A DNA stretch of 64,000 nt from contig OX485804.1 of the NCBI GenBank assembly GCA_950295325.1, positions 11,408,001 through 11,472,000 of the forward strand. Direction: 5' to 3'. Within the stretch, counting starts at the first letter, position 1, and each line of letters begins with the position of its first letter. This DNA comes from Polytrichum commune (taxonomy: Eukaryota; Streptophyta; Polytrichopsida; Polytrichales; Polytrichaceae). The position numbers and the translations under genes are program-made. The notes under the pieces are model-generated. The model ran no database searches and was not told the origin of the DNA. It saw only the letters and a program-made list of their open reading frames with translations. Positions 39,175-64,000 of the stretch are shown here, in pieces.

Positions 39175-40891
39175 CAATGAGGGTACTTTAGACAGTAGTC
39201 TGGAAAGTGTATGCAGTAGTTGTGGAATATATAGGCAGCAGGAGTCCAGGAGGTTCTGTTTCCTTGAAACCTCCCAAGTGGAGGTTTCTCTCTCAAACTC
39301 TACATATTTGGCTTTCACCCCATTCAAAACCTCAAAGGAGCACCATTCAAATAGCCACAAGGTCCAAGAAGTCACTTTCAATCAATTTTTCTCTTCAGAA
39401 AACACGGTTTCATGGGTACAATATTCCTAACTGTCAAGATGTTTTGAAGGGCTATTCGACCAATAAAACCATGTATTCTGAACCTCATGAGTTTCAAACA
39501 CTATCTAAATTGCGTGTTATCTTTGACATATGCTTCATCCACCAGGTTTTACTTTTTGTTTTTAATGAGATCTTACTTTGCACTTGCACATGCATGTTGG
39601 GCAGAGTCTCTTTTTAGATACAGGTTACCTGTAAAGCTCAACTTGAACCCAACAATGCTTTAAACTCATCATGCTTTGACAATTTATATTCTTAACCTTA
39701 TTGAAGAACCACATCATTTCAGGAATGCCACTTTTGAATGTATTCCCATCTCACTCCCATATCATGGACAAGAGGCTGTAAGACTTGTATGGCATGTAAG
39801 TGATAAAAGGTAGATGTGTGTTATTTAATCACTGTCCTCTCTGCACCCACTACTCATAGAATACAAAATATGCAATTAGTCCGAGATGATTAGCAAATCT
39901 AAACCATGCCCATAGATATTTGCCTTATAATTTCTGGAGCTCATATGAATATCTTATTCATTTTCAAAGTGTAGAATCCCCTGCTCTTTAAGTGGTCAGA
40001 TAGCTCCCCCTATTCATGTTGACTATTAGGCCTAGAATGGTTAGCATATTCTGAGAACATGGTCCAATCTCTTTTAAACAAATATCTCTTTGGTATTTGT
40101 TCTTAGATCCACACCTGAACTCATACGACTCAAATTTATGTGTCCAGATTATTGGTGTGCTGGAATCAGGCACGTCTACCTTAGTAACAGCAGATGATGG
40201 TCTTTGAATGTGTTGGTTGAGGATCGACCCAGCTTTTAGGATAAACTGATGACATTCATTTCCAAAGCACATGGTGCATGACATTGAGCAAGACATCAGA
40301 AACCCTCAAAATTAATAGTTGCTTCAACCCTCATTTTGAACAGGTGCATGCTCATACAAGATTTCATAGATCGGAGATTGGCAAATCAAAAGTGAGTGTC
40401 CTATTTCCTGAAGATAATAGGCTATGGTTAGATCTGTCATGCTTGTCGAGGCTCTGATAAGGAGGTAATGGACTTCAGTTCTTGATTTCAAACATTTTGG
40501 GACCAAGATATTATTTATGAAAGTTAAGATCGGGTGGAGATAAAAAGTGGTTACTTAGGCTCCCCAATGCAAAGAGCGTCACTACTAGCATATATGGTTC
40601 TTGTCCAGTTTCACCCCAGTAACTCCCAGGTGCGTGGGTCATACTGCAACTTGCTCCAAATAATGAGGGACAAAGTGTGCACATTGAGTGCATCGACTAT
40701 AAGGATCCATTGCAACTGGAAATAATAATAAATGAGGTCATTAAAAGCTCTGTGTAGATGTGCATGCAAGGTAATTTCACGATCGCCCACCTGGAAAACC
40801 TCAATTTTCCCATTTTTCAGAGTGAATAGGTTTAGGATACATTATGCATAAGGCCTCTGCATATTGATAACATACCTCAAACGAGGAAGAC
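39175..40891. other. 3' flank of the carboxypeptidase gene, then intergenic
   Basis: No gene is recognised. An AATAAA at 39462-39467 lies about 290 bases after the stop and could serve as a polyadenylation signal. The open frame at 39207-39617 has no recognised motif and probably reflects the 3' untranslated region and beyond. Confidence 0.4.
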
Positions 40892-41359
40892 CAAGAGAAC
40901 TAGCACAGCGGCCCATAACCATCAAACACAACATGGTCATGTACATGCTCTGTGGCCATACATCACAACATTTGTCAATTTTGTAATCTTCAAATCCAGC
41001 CTTTATTTCAAAATTTGCAAAAATTCTTTACTGCTTGCATAAAAACTCAAGAGAACTAGCAAATCGGCTCATAACCATCAAAGACAACATGGTCATGTAC
41101 ATGCTCTATGGCCACACATCACAAAATTTGTCAATTTTGTAATCTTCAAATCCAGCCTTTACTTCAAAATTTGCAAAAATCCTTTGCTGCTTGCATAGAA
41201 ACCCAAGAGAACTAGCAAATCGGCCCATAACCGTCAAACACAACATGGTCATGTACATGTTGTGTGGCCATACATCACAACATTTGCCAATCTTGTAATC
41301 TTCAAATCCAGCCTTTACTTCAAAATTTGCAAAAACCCTTTGTTGCTTGCATAAAAACA
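40892..41359 (-). repeat. Three tandem 156 bp units
   Basis: Units begin with CAAGAGAAC at 40892, 41048 and 41204, giving an exact 156-base period twice. 156 is 52 codons, so a minus-strand frame repeats its protein reading: FANFEVKAGFEDYKI and MYMTMLCL recur. The frame is open for about 1.7 units (41106-41378) and then broken by a stop at the unit junction. This could be a decayed repeat-protein exon or a chance open frame in a minisatellite. A CATGGC triplication (about 41358-41377) borders it. Confidence 0.7.
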
Positions 41360-47600: not shown

Positions 47601-50600
47601 TGTTATAATCTTCAGCTCATTAGTAAGTTTGAAATTATCTTCAGTGTTTTTTTTCCTTTTATGTTTTCCACGATTTTACTACATCTAACAAAGCAAAGCG
47701 GCACTTCATTGTTTTCGTGAATTCTTGGTGACAACATAATCAAACTATTGGTTTTCATTTAGATTGTGCCAACCTCAATAATTACATCTTTTAACATGTG
47801 ACTAAACCGAATGATGAACGCGAATTAAAAGAATTCACTAATAGTGCCCAAATGCGCTCTCCTTAAATTTAACTGTGTTTCTTCTCATATCCGCATTACA
47901 CCAAGTATTCAAAAGCGTTCCAACTGGAGTAGCATTTTTTGAATTTTGTAGTTTTTCCATCTTCTCCAACCAAAAATATTTGTTGACCATGATGGTATCA
48001 TGGTTATAAAATGGTTGACACTGTTATAGTAAGCCAATATGCTCACTATAAATGCCTAATTACACTAGTAGGTTGAAGTTCTATATAGTTGCTTCGATAA
48101 TATTCAAAAGCTTTAATTCTTAAAGGTTCTTAGAAATTGATTCTAAAAATTTCTAAAAATATATATTTTTTAAAAACCATTTTTTTAATTTATAAATTTA
48201 TAAATTTTATTACATATAAAAAAATAAAAAAATACATTTCATAAAATTGAGGCATTTATAAAATATAAAATATTTATAGATTGTTTATACCCATATAAAT
48301 ATGGATTCTTAGATATTTAAAGAAATCATAAAATACCATCGCATCAAGCACTTAAAGTGCAAAATTAAAAATATACATTACATTTTATTCATAAATAATA
48401 TTAGACTAATATTTTCTAATTATCAAAACGTATTCGACTTAATATTATCAAAACATTAGATTATTTGAACACCAAATCCTCACTTTAGATTATTAATATT
48501 TTGTATTAGTATATATATATATTTCAATTATAACCGAAAATTTGTATTAATTGAATTATATATTATATATTTATATAGGTCTTGTAAGCCTATAATGTGC
48601 AACCTAATGTAAAGATAATTTATATAAAGTTCAATAATTTTTTCATGTTATTTATGAATATTTTTTTGAATATTTTTCCTTCATTTTCATATTAATCATA
48701 CTTGAATATAGTATACATGAGGCTCATGAATTAAAAAATAAGAAACAATTTTTATTTTTTTTACATGTATAATAAAATAATTTATTTATTAGACATAAAA
48801 TTTTAAAAAATGTATGACAAAACTAGTAGATGAAACTAGTAGTGTATAGTACATTATCGTAAAATTTTATTGTTATTATAGATTATGTAGAATTTAAAAT
48901 GTAGATTTTTTACAACTTTTGCTGTCAAACAATAAAATTTTGTCAGAAGCAAAAAAAATAACGTCTTAAAAAATAAAACAAAATATTCTAACTTTCGTAT
49001 TTTTTTTAAAACAATGTGCAAAAATAATTAAATGAAATTTCAGGAATTATTTTGTTAATAATCTATTTTCGTCTTGTTTTGATTTTTATAATTATTTGTA
49101 TAGCTTGTATATTTTCATTTTTCAATGTATGATTAAAAGTAGTATTAATATTTGTTTGATTGTTGTTAATTTAAAATACCAAGCTATAAATTGAACCATT
49201 AAATTTTTGCTGATAAAATAAATGTGAAAGTTATTATTGATAGATTTGATGACCTTCCTCCTGAACAAGAATATTTTCAATATTAGATAATCAAGGTTGT
49301 TTATTTGAATTTTGAAGAACTCTGAACTCTGAAAAATTTTCTTATAAAGATAAGAAGAAGAAAAATGTTCATATGGGTCATACAAATATAGGTTTCATTT
49401 AAATGATCATATGAAAAAAATTAGGAATCAAATGAAAATGTATGACTGCAAATAATAACTTCAATTATTAAATGACATTGTAAGAAATCCTATAATATTA
49501 TATAAGCATTTTTCTTTTTTAAATTATTTAATACTAATGTTATTTTTTATTTTTTTCCTTCGTAATAAGACCATAATAGAGAAAAGGAAGTGGATTTTTC
49601 CTTCCATAAATCTTCACAACAACATTTATGAAATGGAAAATGCGACTAGCATAAAGAATATTGAGATAGCTCGTGAGATTTATAAATCTAAATGTTTCAA
49701 TGACATTGAAAATAAAATTATTAAAAAAAATACAAGAAGATGACAAAGAAAAAAAATTATGAGTATATAAATTAAATATGATGGAAAATTTTTAAAAAAA
49801 TAATAATAATCAAAACGAAGAAAAATTTGTAACAAAGAAGACCAATTAGTTTTAAACTTCCATAGAATTCAATAAATTATTTTTTTATGATTGAATCATC
49901 AATATATCTTATGATGCAATTTTTATAATTGTACCATCTTACTTTTGACAATGTTTTATTATATGTAAGAAAATTTGAATGTGTGGTTTCTTTTTAATTT
50001 CTAAATACAAAGAAATTCATGAATTCGTGAAGAAAATTATATAAGGTAAAAGTAATGAGGGTTTTTTATATGAGGTTAGAAATGTTGTAATATTTCCAAT
50101 AAGATCTTAATACTATAATAGCCATCTTAAAAAAATAGACATAAAATTACAATATTATTTTCCATTCATAATGGATATTATCAAATGGTTTAAATGTTTT
50201 GAAAGTTATATATTTATTATCAAATATTTTTGTAAATATTTTGAAAGTTGTATATTTGTTCTTATAATTCATTATGTGACATCTAGTATATTATCTTTTA
50301 TGCACATTTTATTCCATGACATTTAGTATAATTACAAATTATATTAAAATATATATTATACTTATATATATGCAAATTATTGAAAACTTTAAAATTATTT
50401 TTATTCTTCTCTAAGATATTTTGTAATAAGTTAACAAAAATTTATCTATCTAAAGCACTATGAGGTTTTTTTTTCAAAGAATACATCGTTAGCATTGTTT
50501 GTTTACGCAAATCTGTTTATTTGTAATAGAATTTTCTAAACCAATATCAACTATAACAAAAATAGCTTAAGGGATACGCTGTTTGTCTCTATTTAAACTG

Positions 50601-51179
50601 CAATTCTTTAAACATTAAAGATAATTTGTGTCATCATTGCTTCCACTTCTTATAGAAGTAGATAACCACATTTTTTTGTTTTTTCTCTAACGTGATATTA
50701 TATTTTTTTGATAGCCAAATAATTTTCTTAAAGGTTGGATAAGAATATTATTAACATCTCCACCTATATTTGTGGCATCTTTGATATGCTTCTCCTTTGT
50801 CGTTCATAATAACGTTATTGTTGATGTTATCTTCACAATCATAAACATTACCATTTTCAAATAGTTTTATTGATACACTTAATTCAAACAAGGCCTCAAT
50901 TCCACCATGAATGCATCTATATACATACCAAAAAATTCTAACATAACACCTTATAAAATATCAGAAATTATTTTAATAAGGAGAAGTTGGTTTTTGCACA
51001 TGTACATTCTAATACACTACTTAGAAAAACATTAGACATACAAGGCGTAGGGAATCAATGATATCATACCAACGTCCTGGAACACATTGTAATTATATAT
51101 GTTATCCTTCCGAATGTGCTACATGATGACGAATGTGCTCCAATGGAATAATTTTTCTTTTAAAATGTCATTAGCCATG
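47601..51179. other. Extremely AT-rich block, no gene seen
   Basis: From about 48100 to 50600 the sequence is overwhelmingly A and T, with long A and T runs and TATATA tracts, unlike either flank. Frames present (49122-49385, 49537-49743) are lysine/isoleucine/asparagine-rich as expected by chance at this composition. No organelle gene was recognised. Confidence 0.5.
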
Positions 51180-52410
51180 ATCTTTTCTAATCGCTTATTA
51201 AGATAAAAATCTTTTGATTTTTTACTGAATTATACATGTAGTGTGTAATTATAAGCGGAGTTAAACGCCACACTAAGTAATCTATTCTACGACCTCGAAG
51301 TTGATGGTTGTCAATCTTCATCCACCGTTTCAGAGCTGCATAATAAGATTCAATATTTGTGTGTTTTGGTTTGAGTGTGAATTCCGATGGTGACCCACAA
51401 GATACATCTTTTTAAAATACAAATCATTTAAAAAAATCAATTTTTATATTTTTATAAGGAATATGATACAATAAAAGAGTAAACATCATAAAATAAATAA
51501 GGGAATGAGATTTGAAATTAAAATAGATAGGCAATGACAGTCAAAATTGACTTTGATGGTCATAGTGTACGTCAATGAATTGTTCTATTTTTTCCACATA
51601 TAAAAAAACTTGAACAATTTCTCCTTAATTATATGAACTTATTTCAAGAAATCCTCTTCTTTCTCCTTGTATTCAATAAGAAGATATGTGACAATATGCA
51701 TTTTTTTGTTAACTAGATCCTTCAACATATCCAAATTAGGTATATTTGACCAATTGTGGTTTCTCCAATTCTTCAAAACATAGAAAACACATAAATAAAT
51801 GAAAACCCCGTTTTCAAGCCATGTTCGCTTTATTGTATTCCTTAGATAATCTGCATCATAAACAGTGAAGGAAGACAGAAAAAAAACTCCTCCCTATCTC
51901 TATGGAGGTGCCTTCGTAATAGCTTTAGCCACATAATAAAATCTTCTTTTATCATTCAGCTAATGAGCACCCAAGCTATGGGAATTTCATTCTTCAGTCA
52001 TCAAACATCAATAATGAAAATTATGGATACTTCGATACATTGGTTCCAAATATTGCATCCATTGTAGTGGCTCTTTTGTGTCCATATTTGAACATCATTT
52101 ATTTTTGTTATGATGTTTGTATACCTAGAATAAAAAGAATAATTTATAACATCATCATTTTTATGCCATATGAAAAGGTCATCTAGGTATTTCAAAGCTA
52201 TATTTTTCACACTGTCTAATTCATTATGGTGGCGGCGTCATACTCCCATTTTCAATATGTTTTTATAATAAGCAATATCCTTAAGCTGAACAAAATCATC
52301 ATGTATGTCTAGGCATTTCATCTTCCTCCATTGAATTCAGTTTTGCATGTGCTCTTCATAAACTTGTTTAGTAGTAAATCCCTTACCCAATTGTGTCTTC
52401 AGCCAAGCTT
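51180..52410 (-). pseudogene. Decayed MULE-like transposase remnant
   Basis: Minus-strand frames, broken by several stops, include HTNIESYYAALKRWMK and GRRIDYLVWRLT near 51390-51260. This resembles the segment after the catalytic core in MULE/SWIM-type plant transposases (a TN..IES.....LK pattern, then RR.D.L). Upstream pieces fit the same kind of protein: TIKRTWLENG and VLKNWRNH near 51840-51740, and ALKYLDDLFIWHKNDDV near 52190. No terminal repeats were found and the reading is badly interrupted, so it is a fossil. The assignment rests on motif similarity recalled for the family, not on an alignment. Confidence 0.45.
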
Positions 52411-53839: not shown

Positions 53840-54336
53840 GTCACATATAGAAAGAAAAGAAAAATTACGCCCGTACATTGTACCGGCATGAATGTGAGCC
53901 CGTTATCCAAATGCTTAACACATCGGACCATGTAACACTATATTCGGTAATTGGAGACTTTTTGTTGATTATGAGACTATATAAGGATGCGCATTTCAAA
54001 ATTGGACCAGTAATGACGACTAAAAATCCCATATGTATAATGGTATGCTACTATTATTATACATAAAGGCATGGAAGTGAACAAAAATGTGAGGCATACA
54101 TGAAAATAGTTGCGTATGAAATGACAACTCGTTATGAATGGAAGGGAAGGTGCGAAGAATGAATGGAAGTTTAATGAATTAATTGGGATTGAAATACAAT
54201 TATAATGGAAATACCATCAATGTCTTGAGTAACTTGGAATAGCATACTAGAAAGTAAGCACTTAAATATGTTCTACACCTAAGCATTTAGGGAGTCCGTC
54301 CCACTAGTACGCTTCTAGTCACACTAGTCCGACCCA
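53840..54336. other. Spacer downstream of the DGQHS gene
   Basis: Nothing recognised. It probably contains the 3' end of the minus-strand gene whose coding part stops at 54337. Confidence 0.4.
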
Positions 54337-55451
54337 CTATTTTTTTTTTGCGGCTAAGTCCATTTTTTTGGCGGCCTCCATGGCTCTAAAAATCTCAGGC
54401 CCATGACTGTATCCTTGTGTGTTGCCTGGACAGGAATATGTGTCGTTCTTGCATGTTTCAGGACGCGCTCCCGAATTGTACGAGGTGGTATTATAAGTAG
54501 AATACGAGGGCGTTTGCAAAAGGGAACGTCTTGAGCTTCTCCGGAGGGCCAGACAACGATCGGACTCGGAAGATGCGGCCTTGAGGGCGTGCCTATCCAA
54601 GGAGGACGTGGAGGAGGGCCGGGCACCAAGCGAGCGGGTAGCCACCTGCGAAACAACGTCATAGGAAGATAAAAATAGGAATGGAGTGGGAAAAATAATG
54701 AGGGCGGTTTGGGATGGGCGCTCGTAAAGAGAACGGCACGCACACGGAAGACAAACAAAACAAAAGCGGGAAAGGGGTTTAGGGTTGAGGAGGGCACCTT
54801 GGCTGTGGGGACGTCCATGCGGGGAACGGTAGGAACGAGGGGGGCGTCGACGGGAGCATCCGGAGCCGATGGAACTATTGCACTGTTGGATGGCGGGGGG
54901 GAGTCGAGGCGTGGAGGAACGGAGTCGGCGGGGGAGGTGTGGCAACGGGGGCCTTCCATGCGGAGACGCCGGCTCGGCCCACGACGAGCGACGGCGTCGT
55001 CCCTCGAGGGTGAGAGGTGTCCCAAACGAACGAGCGTCCGTTTCTCCTTGGAGAGGGGGGAGGGCGACGGGGCGTACGCGCGGGGGACAAGTGCTGGGGG
55101 CGGGCTGCCTCTGGATCCATGACCTCCGCTGGACGCTCCTCCTGAGACGACTGGGTCTGTTGGATGAGCTCCACGTCGTCGTCCCCGCCCAGGTCGAGTC
55201 TCTCCATGCGGACATCCTCCATGTGCGCAGACGGATGCCCTTCCTGGTCAGGGCTCTCCACAACCATCCCACGCGGACCTGCCGAGTCATTGGGGCTCCC
55301 CTGCATTTCCTCCACAATGACCATGTCAGTGTGTTGCGCAGTGTCATCGCCCCGCCTATCTAGAACCCTTGGGACGACGGTGAAAGAGGCCGTGTCGGTG
55401 TCTGTGGGCAGTCCTACCCTTGAAGGGGGAGGGGTGAGGACTGCCGGACCT

Positions 55452-55483
55452 GAAGATTCACGAACGCGCGTTCGTAAATCTTC
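55452..55483. repeat. Palindrome copy inside a coding exon
   Basis: A 32-base inverted repeat with arms GAAGATTCACGAACG and CGTTCGTAAATCTTC around a CG centre, one mismatch between arms. It lies in the third exon of the DGQHS gene and is read through as LRTRVRE in the open frame. The outer GAAGATT/AATCTTC pair is not shared with other copies. Confidence 0.9.
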
Positions 55484-56495
55484 GTCCTCCCTTAGCGCTG
55501 CCGTGATTGCATCGTGGGAGGTTGAGGCGGCCGCCGTCACTTCCGGGGGCAATGGACTTCCCGCCGGCGTTGGGTGTGGCGCTGTTTGGTGGGAAGGCCC
55601 TCCTTGGTACATGACTGGAGGTGGGGGCTGTGAGGGGTATCCTCCAGGGGGGGAAGGGGTAAGGTTGCTGGACCGGCGCAAAGAGGCTCTGCATGTTTCT
55701 GAGCATCTCGAAGATGGCGTCGGTTTTGGCCGCTGAATCCCTCAGCTGCTCTTGCAGCCTGGCCAGATGCTTCGCGCTCTCCTCCTGTGCTGCAGCCATC
55801 TCCTCCTTCATCTTCGCCTCCAGCTTGGCGTTGAGCTCAGCGACGGTGAGTGTCTCCTCCTTCACCCGCTTGTTCTTGTCGTAGTCCACGCCAAGCTCGG
55901 CCATGATGTCCATGTCCCCCTCGTCCTCGTCCGAGACCTCGATGATTGCTCCCGGCGGCAACTCCACGTATGGAGTCTTCTTCATCCTCCTCCTCGTGTT
56001 GCGGAAGAGGTCCAAAGATGGCCGCGAGCGTTGGTCGAGGATGTCCAGGGTTTCCATCTTCGGAACCACGGCGGGCCTTGGAGACTGTGACGTCGAGCAT
56101 CCGCCTGGCGTTCCGAAAGGCTCCGCAAGAGATGTTCTCGCCGGGAGGACGTCCAGGGTTGTCCCCGCGGACGACCCGGTGTAACCACCCGGCGTCCCTT
56201 GAGGGTCGGGAAGATCCGTCGTTGGCGGCAAGATCCGAAACGGGGGTATGTCGAAGGACTGCAAAATGGCGTCCACGTTGGCGGAGGGGGTGGGCTCGTC
56301 GTCCTCAGAATCGTGGAATGGTATGCCCTCGTCGGCGGGCATACTGAAGTCCGTCCTGGGGACAGAGATGTCCTTGAGGTCCATCGTCGACGCCTTCGCA
56401 CGGTGGATCTTGAAGTCTTCTTCGTCGATAGCGTCAACGAATGTGTTGACTACGAGACCCATCATCTGTGAGAAGAGAGCAATAAGGTCAAAAAA

Positions 56496-56668
56496 TACGA
56501 ACGCACGTTCGTAAACATCAAAGCGTAGCGTGCAACGAGTTTCAAGCATTACATTACGAAGGGGTTATGTTTACGAACGAACGTTCGTAAACATGAATGC
56601 GTCACGTGCAACGACTGTGAAACAATACATTGAGAAGTTGGTTAACTTTACGAACGAGCGTTTGTAAA
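56496..56668. repeat. Three palindromes inside one intron
   Basis: Copies at 56496-56513 (centre CA), 56569-56592 (GTTTACGAACG arms, centre AA, perfect) and 56647-56668 (centre AG, one mismatch) lie in the 222-base intron 56466-56687 of the minus-strand gene. The first ends 30 bases before the 3' splice site. The last begins 19 bases after the 5' splice site. Confidence 0.92.
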
Positions 56669-58045
56669 TGGAGTCTGGACAACTTACCATAGCCGCATAT
56701 ATGAATTTGGAGCCTCCACATACGTTGTATACCGTCTCTCCACTTATAACCAGACTCTGCAATACAGAGACGTAGAACTCCATCCTGAGTTCCATGGCGG
56801 GGAAGACGGTGTAGAGGGTCTCTTGCAGCAGATCCTTGGGAGGGGGATGCGGGATGCTGTAGATTTTCTTGAACGTGTGGTTTGCCTTGATAGGTGGTCG
56901 CCCATCCCTTAGCTCATTGTACGTCAAGAAAATCAGGCTGACTGCTCCCACCTACTTGTTGCCCCTGGCCTCGTTGATGGCCACGATCCCCTCCGTCTTC
57001 GCTGGCACGTACGTGCTGTGGAAGATGCTGTACTCGAATTTGATCTTCTGCTCGTACAGCTCTATGACCACAGAGAGCTTCTCTTGTTGACTATCCACAG
57101 CCAAACGTGTGGCTCCCTCTTGGCCGGCGATTTGAACTCCATGAACTTGGCCATGAAAGGGTTGTAGAAGGGAATGTCCTTCCCCCCCTGCCTTGACGCA
57201 CCCGGGATCCCCCTGAAATCGATGAGGGCAAAAGGGCAACCCCGTCGATCCTCCCTCACCTCGGCCCTGCTGATGGTGCCGTCCCACTTGGAAAATGTGA
57301 CCCTCTCCACGCCGGAGGTGATCACGCAAAACCTTGCCACTCCTTCGAATGTGGCGTTCCTCTTCCTCTCCAAAAATTTTAAGTACAGCATAACCTCATG
57401 GGGATCCGTGTCAGTTTTCTTAGTCCTTTTGTTCCCCTTCAACTTCAAAACCGAGGCGTGCTCCTTGACCAGACTGCGCATGGAGGCTCCGTTGATGTTG
57501 TAGTCGACCTTTAACATTTGCCATTGCGGCCAGATGATGTCGCCGTCGACTTCAAAGATTATGTACTCTGGTATGAGTACGCTCAACTCTCTCATGGCTG
57601 CAGTCTTCAGCTTCCGGTGGTCACACCACTCCTTGATAGAGTACGTGCCGGGCTTGTGCTTTGGCCTCTTCAAAAAGATCTTGGGATAGGGAAGGGTTCT
57701 TCCCACGGTGTTCCCAAGAACATGAATCGCACACCTCTTCAGCTCTGACTCCGTCAATCCCTGGAGGTGTCTAAAGAACTCCCTCAGTAGTGGGGGCGCT
57801 TCACTGGTTTTTTCCGTGCTGTACTTCTCCTCCGTGTCGGGGTTGACCAAATCGCCCGAGCTGTGTGCATCAAAAAACTGGGTCCACAAGTCCCATGTGT
57901 CCCTGTTGCAGCAGATCAGTCTGAGCTCACCCTTCAGCTCAAGCACAGACTTTGTGGTGGTGGACTTCATATCGATGGAAGAGAACTTGTCTACCATCGC
58001 GTCGCAAAATGCCTGCACAAAACAAGATGTCAGTATTGCACATAA

Positions 58046-58123
58046 TACGAACGCACGTTCGTAAATTGAGTCAGTAATTGATGTTTTCGTGAGTCCAACA
58101 CTTTACGAATGTTCGTTCGTAAA
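58046..58123. repeat. Palindrome pair at both ends of a 116-base intron
   Basis: Copies at 58046-58063 (centre CA) and 58102-58123 (centre TT, one mismatch) lie in the intron 58013-58128. The second starts immediately after the donor bases GTGAG. The first ends 33 bases before the acceptor. Confidence 0.92.
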
Positions 58124-59452
58124 CTCACCTTCCATTGAGGAGACTGGTTCTTGGCGTTCTCCCTCTCCTTTGGTGGGCATCCGTGTGCCACCCAGATGTC
58201 TCTCGCAGCCACTATGTTAGCCACCCACGAAGCCTCGAACACCTTGATTTTGTTACCCGAGTTCAGGAAGGTTGAAATCTTGCGTAGTTTGTCCCAATCG
58301 TCCGACCAGACCAAGAACGCCTTCCAGTACCACAGGTCAGCCTCCAGCTCGTGCTGGAAGTTGTCGTCCTTGAGGATCTGTTGCGACGCCTCCAAGCTAT
58401 GCTGACCATCTATAATCCAGAATTCTTCATTCTGGATTCGCGGCCAATCCATCTCTGTCGGTCGGGATGTCAGCCCTTTGGGCATGACGCAGATGGTCTG
58501 CCTATCCCACTTGACGTTGTTCATGAGGTTGTTGATCTGCCACTTTACCCCACCGCTCTCGCGAGACCTTACCACCCACTTATTGGGGGATTTTTCGCAC
58601 TTGAAGCAGTCCACGTTGAACGTGAAGTGGCGCCCCATGGGCCAGCAATCCTTCGAGTAATTATTGAAATCTCGTAGAATCTTCGTTGCCTTCACTGCAT
58701 CTGGATTCTCACCCTTCTTTAAAGGGGTTGGCATCAGGGGAGGAGAGCTCACCTCAACGCCCTCTGTTACCCCAGACCTCTCCATTTCGTCCCGGGACCT
58801 CTTTGATGGCGTGGAATGTCGGCTGGGACCCTCCGTCACCCTGCTCGCGGAAGGCACCGGCCTGGGTGCACTTCTCGATCCTCCTGCCCCGGATGCGGAT
58901 GGTTTTCATGGGCTCTTCTTCTTCTTGTTGGCTTCGGCGACCGCGCTATTGTACTTGGAGATATTCAAGGAAAGCGCGGCCAACTTCCTTGCTGTCCAGT
59001 ACGAGCTTAGGGCGTACTTCGTGAACAGGTCCTTGAGGAAGTGTTTGGCATCAGCCACTACGTTATTTTCTGCGTATGTGTAGGAGAAACTATGTCTCCT
59101 GTACTCTAACAGGAGGTTAATGTGATCCTTCTTATTTTTCATGTCTAAAATCACATAATCTCCTTGTGCCTCAATTGATTCTACTTCCCAAGTCTTCATC
59201 TGCACCCATTGCTCTGGCTGGTCCGGCGTTGTTTCCAGCTCGTAGGTGAAGCGAAGACAGAAAAGACCGTCTGATGTTTTCTCTGGCAGTGCCGTCCATT
59301 CCCCAATGAAGTCCTCCTTCGGGACATAATTATCGTTTCCGTTGGGGTCGGACACTGACTCTGGTAGCTGATCTATCTGCACTGCGAACATCTCAATGGC
59401 GCTCCTGCTCGGTCTAGCCATCTGCAGAGCACATAAACATTTAGTATTGTGT

Positions 59453-60024
59453 TTACGAACGAGCGTTCGTAATTGACAAGAAAATCATATATACTAATCA
59501 ATGAACGCTGGCTATGGATACCCGTGAGGAGTTTTAATTATGTCATCGCCGATTTCATTTACGAACGATCGTTCGTAAAGAATGTGGTTGCTAAGGTGTA
59601 TTTGACACAAGTTTACGAACGTGTGTTCGTATTGTTTGTAAACAAGTCCACGAGTTGTCCAGTGTTATCTAATTTCCACGAGGGTTGTTCGAATTTCTAT
59701 GAGCATCTTCTAAATAGGTGAATTAATACTTTAGTTCTTATTTACGAACGTGCGTTCGTAAATTATGCTACTTGGGAATGCAGACAATTACCATTAAGGG
59801 TTTGGGATATTATTATAGTTTGTGATTACGAACGTTCGTTCGTATTTTTGTATGTTTCATTTGGATTTGAGGATTTGAGGATGTACAGGGTATAGACGAA
59901 TATACGAACGTGCGTTCGTAAAAATGGAGGGTGAGGTGCGTATTTACGAACGCACGTTCGTATATGTTTGTGGGGTAAGGCATGTATTCACGCCACATTT
60001 ACGAACGAACGTTCGTAAATGTGG
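59453..60024. repeat. Cluster of eight palindromes upstream of the DGQHS gene
   Basis: Cores of TACGAACG, two bases, CGTTCGTA lie at 59453-59472, 59558-59579, 59614-59631, 59740-59763, 59827-59844, 59903-59920, 59945-59962 and 59993-60024, with centres AG, AT, TG, TG, TT, TG, CA and AA. Spacing is irregular (about 40-130 bases) and the DNA between copies is not repeated. The last is a perfect 32-base palindrome with arms CCACATTTACGAACG. The first ends 31 bases before the putative splice acceptor at 59422, so this stretch may be an intron or the promoter of the gene. Confidence 0.93.
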
Positions 60025-60539
60025 TCATCTGGGATTAGGAAATGGTATATTTATTTATATACATATATCCGTACATATACATATACGTGTATATGTTGTT
60101 ATGAATGTTGCGATCTGGCATTGTTCATGATCCTGCAACTCGTGATCAGATTGATGAAACACAAGTGAAAAATGGAATCAGAACAAAATTTGCGAGTCAG
60201 TGATTGATAGTTCAGAATGAAGAGGAAAGTGTTATTTCATACAAAACATGCCATACCTCATAATGCAGAAAACAAATCACAAGGAATTCATCAAACAACA
60301 ATTTCAGATTGTAAAGGACTGATTTGTAAAGGAAACCTGTACTCACATTGAATTGTTGCACAGTTTCCCTGCCTCCTACTGAGAAATCCAGAAATCCTCA
60401 CAAATGCACACCAAATTGTCTTTCAAAAGCGCTGAATTCGCTTTCAATTGTAATTTCACTTTGTCACACTCTCAAGCCTTCACAACTTATATGCAAATCC
60501 TACACAAACCCTGATGTACACAACTCACAACCTTCAGAA
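60025..60539. other. Intergenic, no gene seen
   Basis: Ordinary AT-rich sequence to the right of the palindrome cluster; nothing recognised. It could include upstream exons or the promoter of the minus-strand gene. Confidence 0.35.
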
Positions 60540-60805
60540 ATCTCAAGCTTTCTGAAACTCTCAAGCTCTCAAGCTTTCCCACTCTCAAGCTCTCAAGCTT
60601 TCCTACTCTCAAGCTCTCAAGCTTTCCAAAACTCTCAAGCTCTCAAGCTTTCTGAAACTCTCAAGCTCTCAACCTTTCTGAAACTCTCCACTTCTCAATC
60701 TTTCTAAAACTCAAGCTCTCAAGCTTTCTAAAACTCTAAACCTCTCAAGCTTTCTATAACTCTCAACCTCTCAAGCTTTCCTACTCTCAAGCTTTCCTAT
60801 TCTCA
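60540..60805. repeat. CTCTCAAGCTTTC minisatellite
   Basis: Irregular tandem copies of CTCTCAAGCTCTCAAGCTTT and shortened variants (CTGAAACTCTCAAGC). The plus-strand frame over it (60348-60707) reads as SLSSSQAF-type repeats and is not a gene. Confidence 0.8.
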
Positions 60806-61000
60806 AGGTTCTGACAACACAACAAAACAACATTCACAATGAGGCTCTAAAATTGGCAAGGGCTTCGCCGCACCTAAGAGCTCCTCTCCCCCTCTGCTCC
60901 AAATGACAAATGAGGAGGAGAGAGAGGGGCGCGGGGAGGTAGTCGGCGCCGCTAGGGTTTCCAAGCGGCAGCCACGTGGCTAGTGGCCACTAGCTAGGGC

Positions 61001-61170
61001 TGGGATGGGGGATGGGGGATGGGGAGGGGATGGGGGGGATGGGGGGGAGGGGATGGGGAGGGGATGGGGGGGAGGGGATGGGGAGGGGAGGGGAGGGGAT
61101 GGGATGAGGATGGGATGGGAGAGGGGGAGGGGGAGGGTATGGGGACGAGGGGATACCATGGGGACATGGA
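61001..61170 (+). repeat. G-rich GGGGAT tract, G-quadruplex candidate
   Basis: About 170 bases consist almost only of GGGGAT, GGGGGG and GGGGAGGG units on the plus strand, giving many runs of three or more G with short spacers. The glycine-rich frame at 61005-61199 is an artefact of this repeat. Confidence 0.8.
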
Positions 61171-61559
61171 GGGATGAGGGTTCAGGAAAAATGAAATAGG
61201 AGATGGGAGGAGCTTAGTTTAAGGACATAAATTTAACTTTGCGTATCCCCTTAGTACCTCGACATATGGATTCCTTGTAAACATATTTTAGAAAAGTATG
61301 TTCAGATAATTTGTATTTAACAATTCACGTCATTTAGTAGGTTTTCGATGAAGAATCCACCCCCAAGATGCAAATGTCGTTTTCATGAACGAGACATCTT
61401 TAAAGTTCTTCAATGGTTCCTCAAATACATATTACATATATAAATGACTCAATTTGAATTGTGGAGAGGGGCTATCTGATTCTCCACAAGAGGTGGATGA
61501 AAATTCAATTTTCAATACGATGTCATTAATTTAATGAGGTGTTAGCTTGAACCACCCTT

Positions 61560-61905
61560 AATATGATATTTAGTGTTAGATACTCTAAATACAAACGCAT
61601 AGTACACTAAATATCACTAACCCTATGAAAGTAATTACTATTCATTGTGAACTCAAACACTTAATTTCAACTATAATGGTAATATGTGGATGTCGCATGC
61701 ACAAATTTTGTGTAAGGAAATTAATATGAAAAAAAAATTAACAATGATAAAAGCATAAAGGACATGGTAGTAGGAAATGTGGTGGCCCATTTAATATGTC
61801 CAACAATAATTATCAAAGAATTGAAATTTAGTGTTGACCATGATTATAGTGTAACAACACTATATTATACAATCAAACACTAAATATCATATTTAGTGTA
61901 GTGTA
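61560..61905. mobile_element. CACTAAATAT-type MITE, copy 3
   Basis: Left AATATGATATTTAGTGTT and right ACTAAATATCATATTTAGTG plus TAGTG form the inverted ends. The body is collinear with copies at 20538 and 22676 but more diverged (GGTAATATGTGGATGTCGCA). The outermost left bases are decayed. Confidence 0.65.
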
Positions 61906-63290
61906 TTTTAGCCATGTGGTCGCATGTTTTGCTAGTAGTATCAATAATTGATAGTATGAGCTTCCCATAAATTAAGTTATTGCGATATGGATTATTTAGG
62001 AGTCGATATTGTTTGTGTATATAATGCATTGAAGTAACGATCTAAACCCTAAGCCCGCAAACCACATAGACAACTTTCACAAACTCTATACCCTAACCCC
62101 AAACCCTAAACCCTAAATCCTACATCTTTTTATCTTACCAACCTTTCTTATATATGGCCATGTTGTGGTCTATGCGCATCATGTCAAAATGGTCTACGAA
62201 TGTTGGTTCGATTGGAACTTGCCTTATTTGGGTCATAGCAACTATAATAATCTAGACTCATGCCAATAATTGTCATTTTGATATAAAACATTGGTTTAGG
62301 GGGTGAAGAGTGAATTTTGAAATGCTAGCCCTTTCACCTTAATAGTTTTGAGTGCAATTTGATCACAAAATACACACTTAGTCTTATTATAACATGAATG
62401 GTTTAAGACTTCAACTTAAATCAACAGTTTAAGCTATGGTCATGCACATACTTCTTGTTGCAAATAATACAAATATATAATTGTAAGTGCATACTATTGT
62501 ATGCACCATTCCAAATTAGTTATCCATTTCCACACCATGGTGGACCTAAAGTGAATTTCCAATAGGACGTCAAGTCATTTAATTAGGTGTCAACTTGAAC
62601 TAACAATCGAATACTAGTGCATTAAACTTTAATTTTCACCAATGATGAATTGCAACAATGAGTCATATTAATATGGGGCGATGTTTGGTGAGCCTCCAGT
62701 TCCAAATGTCCTCAATCTACCCAGCACAAGTCACTATGGATTAAACGATTTTTTATTGGTATTCATGCACTTGGTGACCATATTACAAGCATTTTTTTAT
62801 GTGAATCATATGATACCTATAATTTTAGGGGATTCCACAATATGTTCTTAGCCACTCTTACTTCATTGTGTGTGTGAATATATATATCACTTAGACCTTC
62901 ATCAATTCACTTGGACTTCACACCTTAGTCGCAAATAATTTAATACTCAATGTTAACCCATCAACCCATATATATAATATAATAACTCATATATAAAATA
63001 GTAAAATAGTAAAATATAAATTATACATATATATATATACATATACATACATACATACATATATTGCGCATGGATGGAATGACATATTGTTAGGTCAAAG
63101 TAGGCGGCAGGAATCCGCTTTTTAAATAGCATCCAAGGGATTTTGAACCATCGGGGGAAAGGTACTTAAAGCTCTTCCCCCCACAGAAGAGCTCTTTTCT
63201 GCGGCACATCCAAGTGTACGCTCCACAGACCTGACTGGAACGCGCTCAAACCATTTTCTTGTGCGCCAACCCCACACCTCCCAGGTCCAC
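61906..63290. other. Intergenic with short telomere-like and TA repeats
   Basis: No gene is seen. CCCTAAA-type units occur three times in a row at about 62090-62119, a very short interstitial telomere-like tract. TATATA and TACATA repeats span about 62965-63065. Confidence 0.5.
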
Positions 63291-63296
63291 TATAAA
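63291..63296 (+). promoter_or_regulatory. Possible TATA box
   Basis: TATAAA in the context CACTATAAACTGCAC, just left of the second palindrome cluster, in a locally GC-richer segment. If real, transcription would start near 63322 and run rightward through the palindromes. No gene is visible before the window ends. Confidence 0.25.
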
Positions 63297-63331
63297 CTGC
63301 ACATACCCGTATATACCGCCGCAAATACCGG

Positions 63332-63956
63332 ACGTTTACGAACGCACGTTCGTAAACGTGAGTTGGTAGCACATGCACAAGAGGTATATAGAGATGATGT
63401 GAATTGTTTACGAACGTGCATTCGTAAGTTGTTCACAACCGTACTCGACATTGAGTTACTTATAGACAGAACTAGGCACGAAAATTGTGTCGATTATATA
63501 CGAACGTACGTTCGTATATCTGCCTTCAAGACCCAGACGCGCATGAGTTCCCGTGTAACCGTTTTCTCCAACGGAACATCTGATGATGGGATATTTACGA
63601 ACGTGCGTTCGTAAATATCACCTGGGATTATTTTTCAAGAATCCATAAACATTCCTTAATTTATACACTTCCGTGCATTGGCCACGTTAACAATATGGAA
63701 GTTAAATACAAACGCTCGTTCGTATTTCTCACTACCATTTATGTCCACAGAGAATTATGTTTTCCAATTTTACGAATGCACGTTCGTAAATACCACCTGT
63801 CCACCGTCCACGCATCCACCAACAGACCTGTTAACGCAAGCATGTGTGGAGGACTACACCATGTTTAGGATAGATACGAACGCTCGTTCGTATTTGGCAC
63901 TACCATTTATGTCCATGGAGAAATGTTTTTTAATTTTACGAACGCACGTTCGTAAA
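63332..63956. repeat. Second cluster of eight palindromes
   Basis: Copies lie at 63332-63359 (arms ACGTTTACGAACG, centre CA), 63408-63427 (TG, one mismatch), 63496-63519 (ATATACGAACG, TA), 63590-63619 (GATATTTACGAACG, TG), 63704-63727 (AAATAC..., CT, one mismatch), 63769-63790 (CA, one mismatch), 63874-63893 (CT) and 63935-63956 (CA). The last four belong to two tandem copies of a larger unit. The cluster continues to the edge of the window, so more copies may follow. Confidence 0.93.
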
Positions 63957-64000
63957 TACCACATGTCCACCGTCCACGCATCCACCAACAGACCTGTTGA
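63700..64000. repeat. Tandem duplication of a two-palindrome unit
   Basis: The segment starting at about 63704 recurs about 167 bases later from 63874, including ACTACCATTTATGTCCA and CCACCGTCCACGCATCCACC. Each unit holds a CT-centred palindrome followed about 60 bases on by a CA-centred one. Small indels and substitutions separate the copies. The second unit runs to the window end. Confidence 0.85.

Follow-up and report, generated by a model that had tools for sequence, protein, structure and literature searches.

A 64,000-nucleotide stretch of the Polytrichum commune genome (contig OX485804.1, positions 11,408,001 to 11,472,000; hereafter the window) carries, towards its right end, many copies of one short palindrome with two free bases at its centre. 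This raises the question of what such a dispersed family is and why it keeps to one side of the window. The original prediction, made from the window alone, regarded the copies as short mobile palindromes. We find that they are internal parts of a 14.6-kb transposon, and what is new is that related transposon families carry different palindromes in matching places. Judging from their sequences, these family-specific palindromes resemble a private address code that a protein made by the element would read, probably as a means of escaping host silencing.

The palindromes and the transposon that carries them

A search of the window for TACGAACG-NN-CGTTCGTA with up to two mismatches returned 22 sites (15 exact, seven with one mismatch) between positions 55459 and 63954, while 100 shuffles of the window gave no match (0 expected), in agreement with the claim of at least 22 copies. 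The half-sites of about 8-11 bp are arranged with two-fold symmetry around a CG-NN-CG core, and the two centre bases are indeed free (CA, TG, CG, AG, CT, AT and others, CA and TG being the commonest). The arms occur as originally given but belong to a longer consensus of about ATTTACGAACG-NN-CGTTCGTAAAT for this family, which we term Fam1. Scanning the whole genome (407.8 Mb in 64 contigs, seven of them of 42-78 Mb), as the original prediction had recommended, revealed 4,680 exact TACGAACG-NN-CGTTCGTA sites compared with 0 for the reversed control, and occurrence at chance frequency is not borne out.

No match at up to two mismatches is present left of 55.4 kb in the window. This sharp limit had been noticed before, and its cause is the left end of a transposon at position 53934. 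All 22 palindromes reside inside this one element, which extends ~4.5 kb beyond the right end of the window to window-equivalent position 68491 (Table 1). Its ends were set by aligning other places in the genome that show the same cluster layout. The inverted repeats of ~30 bp (AACACTATATTCGGTAATTGGAGAC... at one end, ...GTCTCCAATTAACGAATATAGTGTT at the other) are near-identical across Fam1 and similar in a second family, Fam2; the terminal repeat is matched 997 times genome-wide at up to two mismatches and the control 0 times. Exact 4-bp target duplications flank nine of the 11 copies having both ends paired (ATCG, TTAG, TGGC, GTAT, AACA, TTGG, TTGT, ATGT in the window copy and TATG in copy E); the other two are copy A and a copy at C2:51.1 Mb.

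The element contains two divergent genes. On the plus strand, past the window, two open frames were found (L010:768-2438 and L010:2450-4090), the second of which matches Pfam DUF7869 (E 8.6e-39), and the DUF7869-domain protein is presumed to be the transposase of the element. A first look at the genome gave 1,862 candidates, of which the 79 scored show 90-100% identity. The other gene, gene 1, has GT-AG splice sites assigned by eye, so that its introns are predicted. The window copy of this gene has two interruptions: a stop near 58906, where copies A, B, C and D are open, and a frame break near 57.07 kb, where copy C is open. For gene-1 exons 1-3, the ratio of nonsynonymous to synonymous divergence (dN/dS) is 0.02-0.13 in those diverged pairs whose dS is measurable, though often high, and 0.09-0.43 between copies B, C and D, which are similar to one another; for the transposase it is 0.14-0.27. 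Several dS values are saturated or undefined, and misframed comparisons were excluded, namely those that involve the window copy for gene-1 exon 4 (6 stops) and copy A for transposase exon 2 (32 stops). By these ratios, purifying selection has acted on both genes. Neither Pfam nor NCBIfam gave a match to gene 1, one fragment reaching Pfam AIPR at a weak E of 0.096. Searches of viral contigs found no relatives of the transposase or of gene 1, and phage records yielded none of gene 1.

Most palindromes form two clusters, one upstream of each gene, and the predicted gene-1 introns contain others (Table 1). Five further palindromes of cluster 2 are located outside the window at window-equivalent positions 64041-64484, which amounts to ~27 sites per element. 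When cluster 1 was aligned across five copies, the palindromes stood out as islands within a poorly alignable spacer. Between diverged copies, 12-24% of the arm, 42-54% of the spacer and 44-75% of the centre positions differ in cluster 1, and 12-31%, 37-56% and 21-57%, respectively, in cluster 2, these figures including misaligned and gained sites. Extra palindromes originate from tandem duplication of the surrounding segment. The duplicated units measure 76 and 166-168 bp in the window copy and 49 bp in copy B, whereas copy E has repeats of ~160 bp with steps of 33-34 bp. With a length of 9.5 kb (C1:639066-648563), copy E harbors 42 palindromes at up to two mismatches, distributed over both clusters, and neither a transposase nor a gene-1 frame except for a 49-residue remnant (E 1e-5). 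Since this copy keeps the sites without the genes, the palindromes seem to act in cis, with the proteins supplied by other copies.

Table 1. Positions of the transposon, gene 1 and the palindromes (window coordinates unless stated otherwise)
Feature	Position	Strand	Remarks
Whole transposon, window copy	C2:11461934-11476491 (window 53934 to 68491)		14,558 bp
Part of the 14,558-bp transposon inside the window	53934..64000		
Target duplication ATGT, left copy	53930..53933		right copy after position 68491, outside the window
Left terminal inverted repeat, AACACTATATTCGG...	53934..53962	+	partner ends at window-equivalent 68491 (L010:4491)
Gene 1	55458..59421	-	exons about 59421-58129, 58012-56688, 56465 to at least 55458
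One palindrome	55459..55476		open coding frame of gene 1
Three palindromes on a 76-bp tandem repeat	56496..56666		predicted third intron of gene 1
Two palindromes	58046..58121		predicted second intron of gene 1
Cluster 1, eight palindromes	59454..60017		upstream of the gene-1 start codon
Cluster 2, eight palindromes	63337..63954		upstream of the transposase gene

Between the two clusters, at 60541-61173, the window contains one CTCTCAAG-type array and one GGGGATGGGGA-type array. Elsewhere in the window, the region 48001-52000 is very A+T-rich (G+C 0.20 and 0.27 in 2-kb windows, compared with ~0.40 around it), and three tandem copies of a 156-bp unit with 91% matches are found at 40891-41358. 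Scans of the window for tRNAs and, at gathering score, for RNA families were negative.

Palindromes of related families

An element adjoining copy C carries a decayed relative of gene 1, whose identity is 24% in exon 1, 42% over the initial part of exon 3 and 41% in exon 2, which contains 6 stops. The element also has a palindrome of its own, the Fam2 motif TTTGGGTCG-NN-CGACCCAAA, at 10 exact sites, some of which directly follow the stretches matching exon 2 and that initial part of exon 3. Genome-wide, the Fam2 motif has 10,011 exact sites and its control 0. Across the 12 regions compared, the Fam1 and Fam2 motifs are confined to their own elements.

A distant transposase fragment that shares 45-64% identity with Fam1 served as a query and gave groups at 96-98, 87-93, ~82 and ~53% identity to it among the 102 scored of 1,604 candidates. 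From the anatomy of Fam1, we expected these elements to have palindromes clustered 2-4 kb upstream of their transposase domain. One region was fetched for each of the four groups, the second pair after the first pair had been seen, and the predicted upstream palindrome is present in all four: AGTTTCCTCTCG-GC-CGAGAGGAAACT in Fam4a (L053), AGGATCCACTCG-AT-CGAGTGGATCCT in Fam4b (L056), ACTTTCACTCG-AT-CGAGTGAAAGT in Fam4c (L057) and the Fam2 palindrome in the group of 53% identity (L054). At least three copies of one palindrome with 8-base arms and a gap of 0-4 occur in 4/4 of the fetched regions versus 0/44 background 2-kb tiles. The related families thus have five palindrome motifs, Fam1, Fam2, Fam4a, Fam4b and Fam4c, all centred on CG-NN-CG and four of them with TTT...AAA outside; read side by side, their sequences have a common frame with a variable part.

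Fam4c has 211 sites as judged by a 22-base pattern, and 45 of the 50 listed lie within ~14 kb of a listed Fam4c transposase. A near cluster is found 2.1-2.5 kb from the transposase (three of four elements) and a far cluster at 10.5-14.1 kb. A second prediction, that gene 1 lies between the palindromes of this family, with exons 1-2 expected in a 1.55-kb gap of the far cluster, was borne out: the stretch fetched (L058) contains one 494-codon frame whose second part corresponds to exon 2 (28.6% identity, E 2.5e-27), and exon 1 was not recognisable there. The frame reads INGQH where Fam1 gene 1 has IDGQH, followed by a GT splice site and a palindrome. Exon 1 is 79-81% identical within Fam1 and 23% identical to Fam2; as the part of the gene that varies most from family to family, it is a candidate reading head.

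Other repeats in the neighborhood of these elements carry palindromes as well. The motif GGCCTCGGATCCGAGGCC, at first attributed to a third related family, is in fact part of another transposon, which is nested in copy A, and is outside the five. This transposon-like insert of ~15 kb (C1:2246925-2261922; L012, L021, L022) has ends reading GACGACACTTGTATGTGAGCGTAGAGC... and a near-complement, unrelated to the Fam1 ends, and a perfect palindrome of its own, AGAGGCCTCGGATCCGAGGCCTCT, with 36 sites in the insert (16-base core, up to two mismatches) and 559 exact sites genome-wide. An open reading frame of the insert contains a GNH motif and has no Pfam match above the cut-off. A related transposase fragment adjoins the left end of copy A (C1:2261990-2263503; L022:4990-6503), as if these families insert near one another. 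The further palindromes GACTTCCAT-NN-ATGGAAGTC and GCTGTCCCGGGACAGC recur several times in other repeats nearby (C1:2213-2310 kb and 2447-2502 kb; L054:1-1200).

A proposed anti-silencing role and its alternatives

We consider it highly probable, from the sequences, that some protein encoded by the element recognises the palindromes. A dimeric binder of this kind is suggested because the sites combine two-fold symmetry, a fixed 2-bp spacer, conserved letters, many noncoding copies, family specificity and retention in a copy without genes. Each palindrome would be a two-fold symmetric site for such a dimer, and we infer that the product of gene 1 is most likely the binder. On the strength of the sequences and of analogy, we lean slightly towards the view that these internal palindromes act in cis, in a large Sola-like transposon of the cut-and-paste kind, as family-specific sites for an anti-silencing protein that it encodes. 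Bound upstream of both genes and in the gene-1 introns, the protein would shield the noncoding sequence there from host silencing. Protection would be limited to members of its own family, the palindrome differing by family and site and protein changing together.

Several observations weigh against this proposal. No library tried gave a significant match or a recognisable DNA-binding domain for gene 1. One palindrome is located in coding sequence. Between the closest copies (B-D, cluster 2), arms and spacers differ equally little (2% each). The Fam4a, Fam4b and Fam4c motifs are only one to two letters apart per 8-letter arm and partly cross-match at two mismatches, and for five of the 50 Fam4c sites listed, no Fam4c transposase is listed nearby. 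A plain transcription factor would leave identical marks. Finally, the flanks beyond the consensus are more complementary than in shuffles at four of 12 positions (10, 12, 13 and 14; uncorrected p 0.001-0.025), as determined for 71 sites with unlike flanks that were taken from 180 sites at up to one mismatch and, coming from six stretches, are not fully independent. A plain binding site does not account for this complementarity, a point of modest weight; it could be a product of template switching between the arms, and it leaves room for a possible hairpin role.

The alternative that survives best, though in our judgment an unlikely one, is self-regulation without anti-silencing: a factor encoded by the element would turn its own two genes on or off, with the sites as its enhancers or operators. 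The position of both main clusters just upstream of the two divergent genes agrees with this, and family specificity suits a private regulator, but introns hold sites too, and copy E has retained and multiplied its sites without either gene. The same retention in copy E, a copy that can be moved only in trans, speaks for sites used in transposition, as does a motif that changes along with the transposase family. In En/Spm, TnpA binds repeated sites in transposition, and the transposase or an accessory protein might likewise bind the palindromes in pairing the ends or excising the element. However, the palindromes lie 1.5 kb (left) and 4.0 kb (right) from the ends, and the inverted repeats hardly vary across Fam1 and remain similar in Fam2, which makes such a use improbable.

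The flank complementarity is also what a structural role would predict, the palindromes forming hairpins or cruciforms in DNA or RNA that serve replication, splicing or chromatin. Yet the arm letters themselves are conserved within a family beyond what pairing requires, no excess pairing was found at flank positions 17-20 of the 71 sites, and template switching would give the same signal, so we assign this role a small probability. That the sites belong to a host protein and are merely exploited by the transposons appears very improbable, given five different motifs in related families and none of the five in the 53.9 kb of the window outside the element. Although the immediate flanks of many sites are unlike one another, independent short mobile palindromes, as originally predicted, are hardly credible: the sites are internal to the element and recur in the same layout, at aligned positions, inside homologous copies with inverted repeats and 4-bp duplications, no solitary or clean palindrome insertion with a duplication of its own was seen in the aligned copies, and extra sites arose by tandem duplication. 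A MITE is rejected on the same grounds, as the original prediction had already done, and what remains of it is a genuine and strongly non-random palindrome family in a large eukaryotic genome.

The VANDAL elements of Arabidopsis are, to our knowledge, the main known case of transposons that counter silencing in a sequence-specific way. If the anti-silencing proposal is true, a different superfamily evolved this ability on its own, with dimeric palindromic sites that are legible from the genome, and dispersed palindromes in genome scans can mark such systems and lead to the transposons behind them. The five families, with related but distinct sites that in some cases are one letter apart per half-site, offer a natural series for studying how a regulator and its DNA code change together.

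Comparison with known systems

According to the available text of PMC10741241, Sola transposons have terminal inverted repeats of 11-1124 bp and lengths of 2 to over 15 kb; that of PMC10741241 and PMC9033089 reports them from the moss Physcomitrella with 4-bp target duplications, and that of PMC3627910 covers the target duplications of Sola2. The present element fits a Sola-like transposon by its 4-bp duplications (exact in 9/11 copies), its ~30-bp inverted repeats and its size of 14,558 bp; its presumed transposase carries the DUF7869 domain. Unlike here, palindrome arrays and a gene resembling gene 1 are not mentioned for Sola in the available portions of these sources (PMC10741241, PMC9033089, PMC3627910). 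The original prediction had named, as a result that would speak against it, that each copy be the core of a longer known transposon. The copies do lie within a longer, Sola-like one, but its palindrome scheme was not found described: the searches, which covered open-licence papers, gave no account of family-specific palindromes in such elements and no mention of DUF7869.

The CACTA element En/Spm likewise has a repeated CpG-containing motif and an element-encoded binding protein, and the ends of the present element read CACTATA... two bases in. Membership in this group, which would require a 3-bp duplication next to a terminal CACTA, is ruled out by 4-bp duplications outside AACACTA ends, that is, with AA before CACTA; in addition, the sites are internal rather than subterminal.

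In bacteria, ParB acts at parS, a palindromic site with its cognate protein, and VirB offsets silencing. A palindromic site with a cognate protein is also what we propose here, and the GQH motif of gene 1 presumably recalls DGQHR/ParB-like proteins. A profile comparison of gene 1 as a ParB-like protein gave no signal, KorB ranking 12 and P1 ParB 16 of 17, in a weak test with few profile sequences. VirB is a ParB-like anti-silencer (PMC10653881, available text). As a long shot by analogy, gene 1 might encode a transposon-borne eukaryotic clamp of the ParB fold that loads at a parS-like family palindrome, spreads along the element and evicts the silencing machinery; the transposon nested in copy A would then be a second user of this principle.

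For the VANC proteins of VANDAL elements, the available text of PMC5735166 describes that VANC21 binds YAGTATTAY, a motif enriched in the noncoding parts of VANDAL21, introns and upstream regions among them, that VANC6 works through other motifs, and that the motif arrays turn over as tandem repeats. Host RNA-directed methylation aims at the same VANDAL regions (PMC10398659, available text). Going by these sources, both systems have a short motif repeated in introns and upstream regions that differs between related families, arrays turning over by tandem duplication, and an accessory gene besides the transposase. Unlike VANC motifs, the present motifs are two-fold palindromes, and the element has 4-bp duplications and a DUF7869 protein; no Mutator domain was present in the frames scanned, and membership in the Mutator-like VANDAL group was rejected. 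The likeness is one of anatomy. VANC is the nearest worked-out case, and the present element probably follows the same strategy in a different superfamily.

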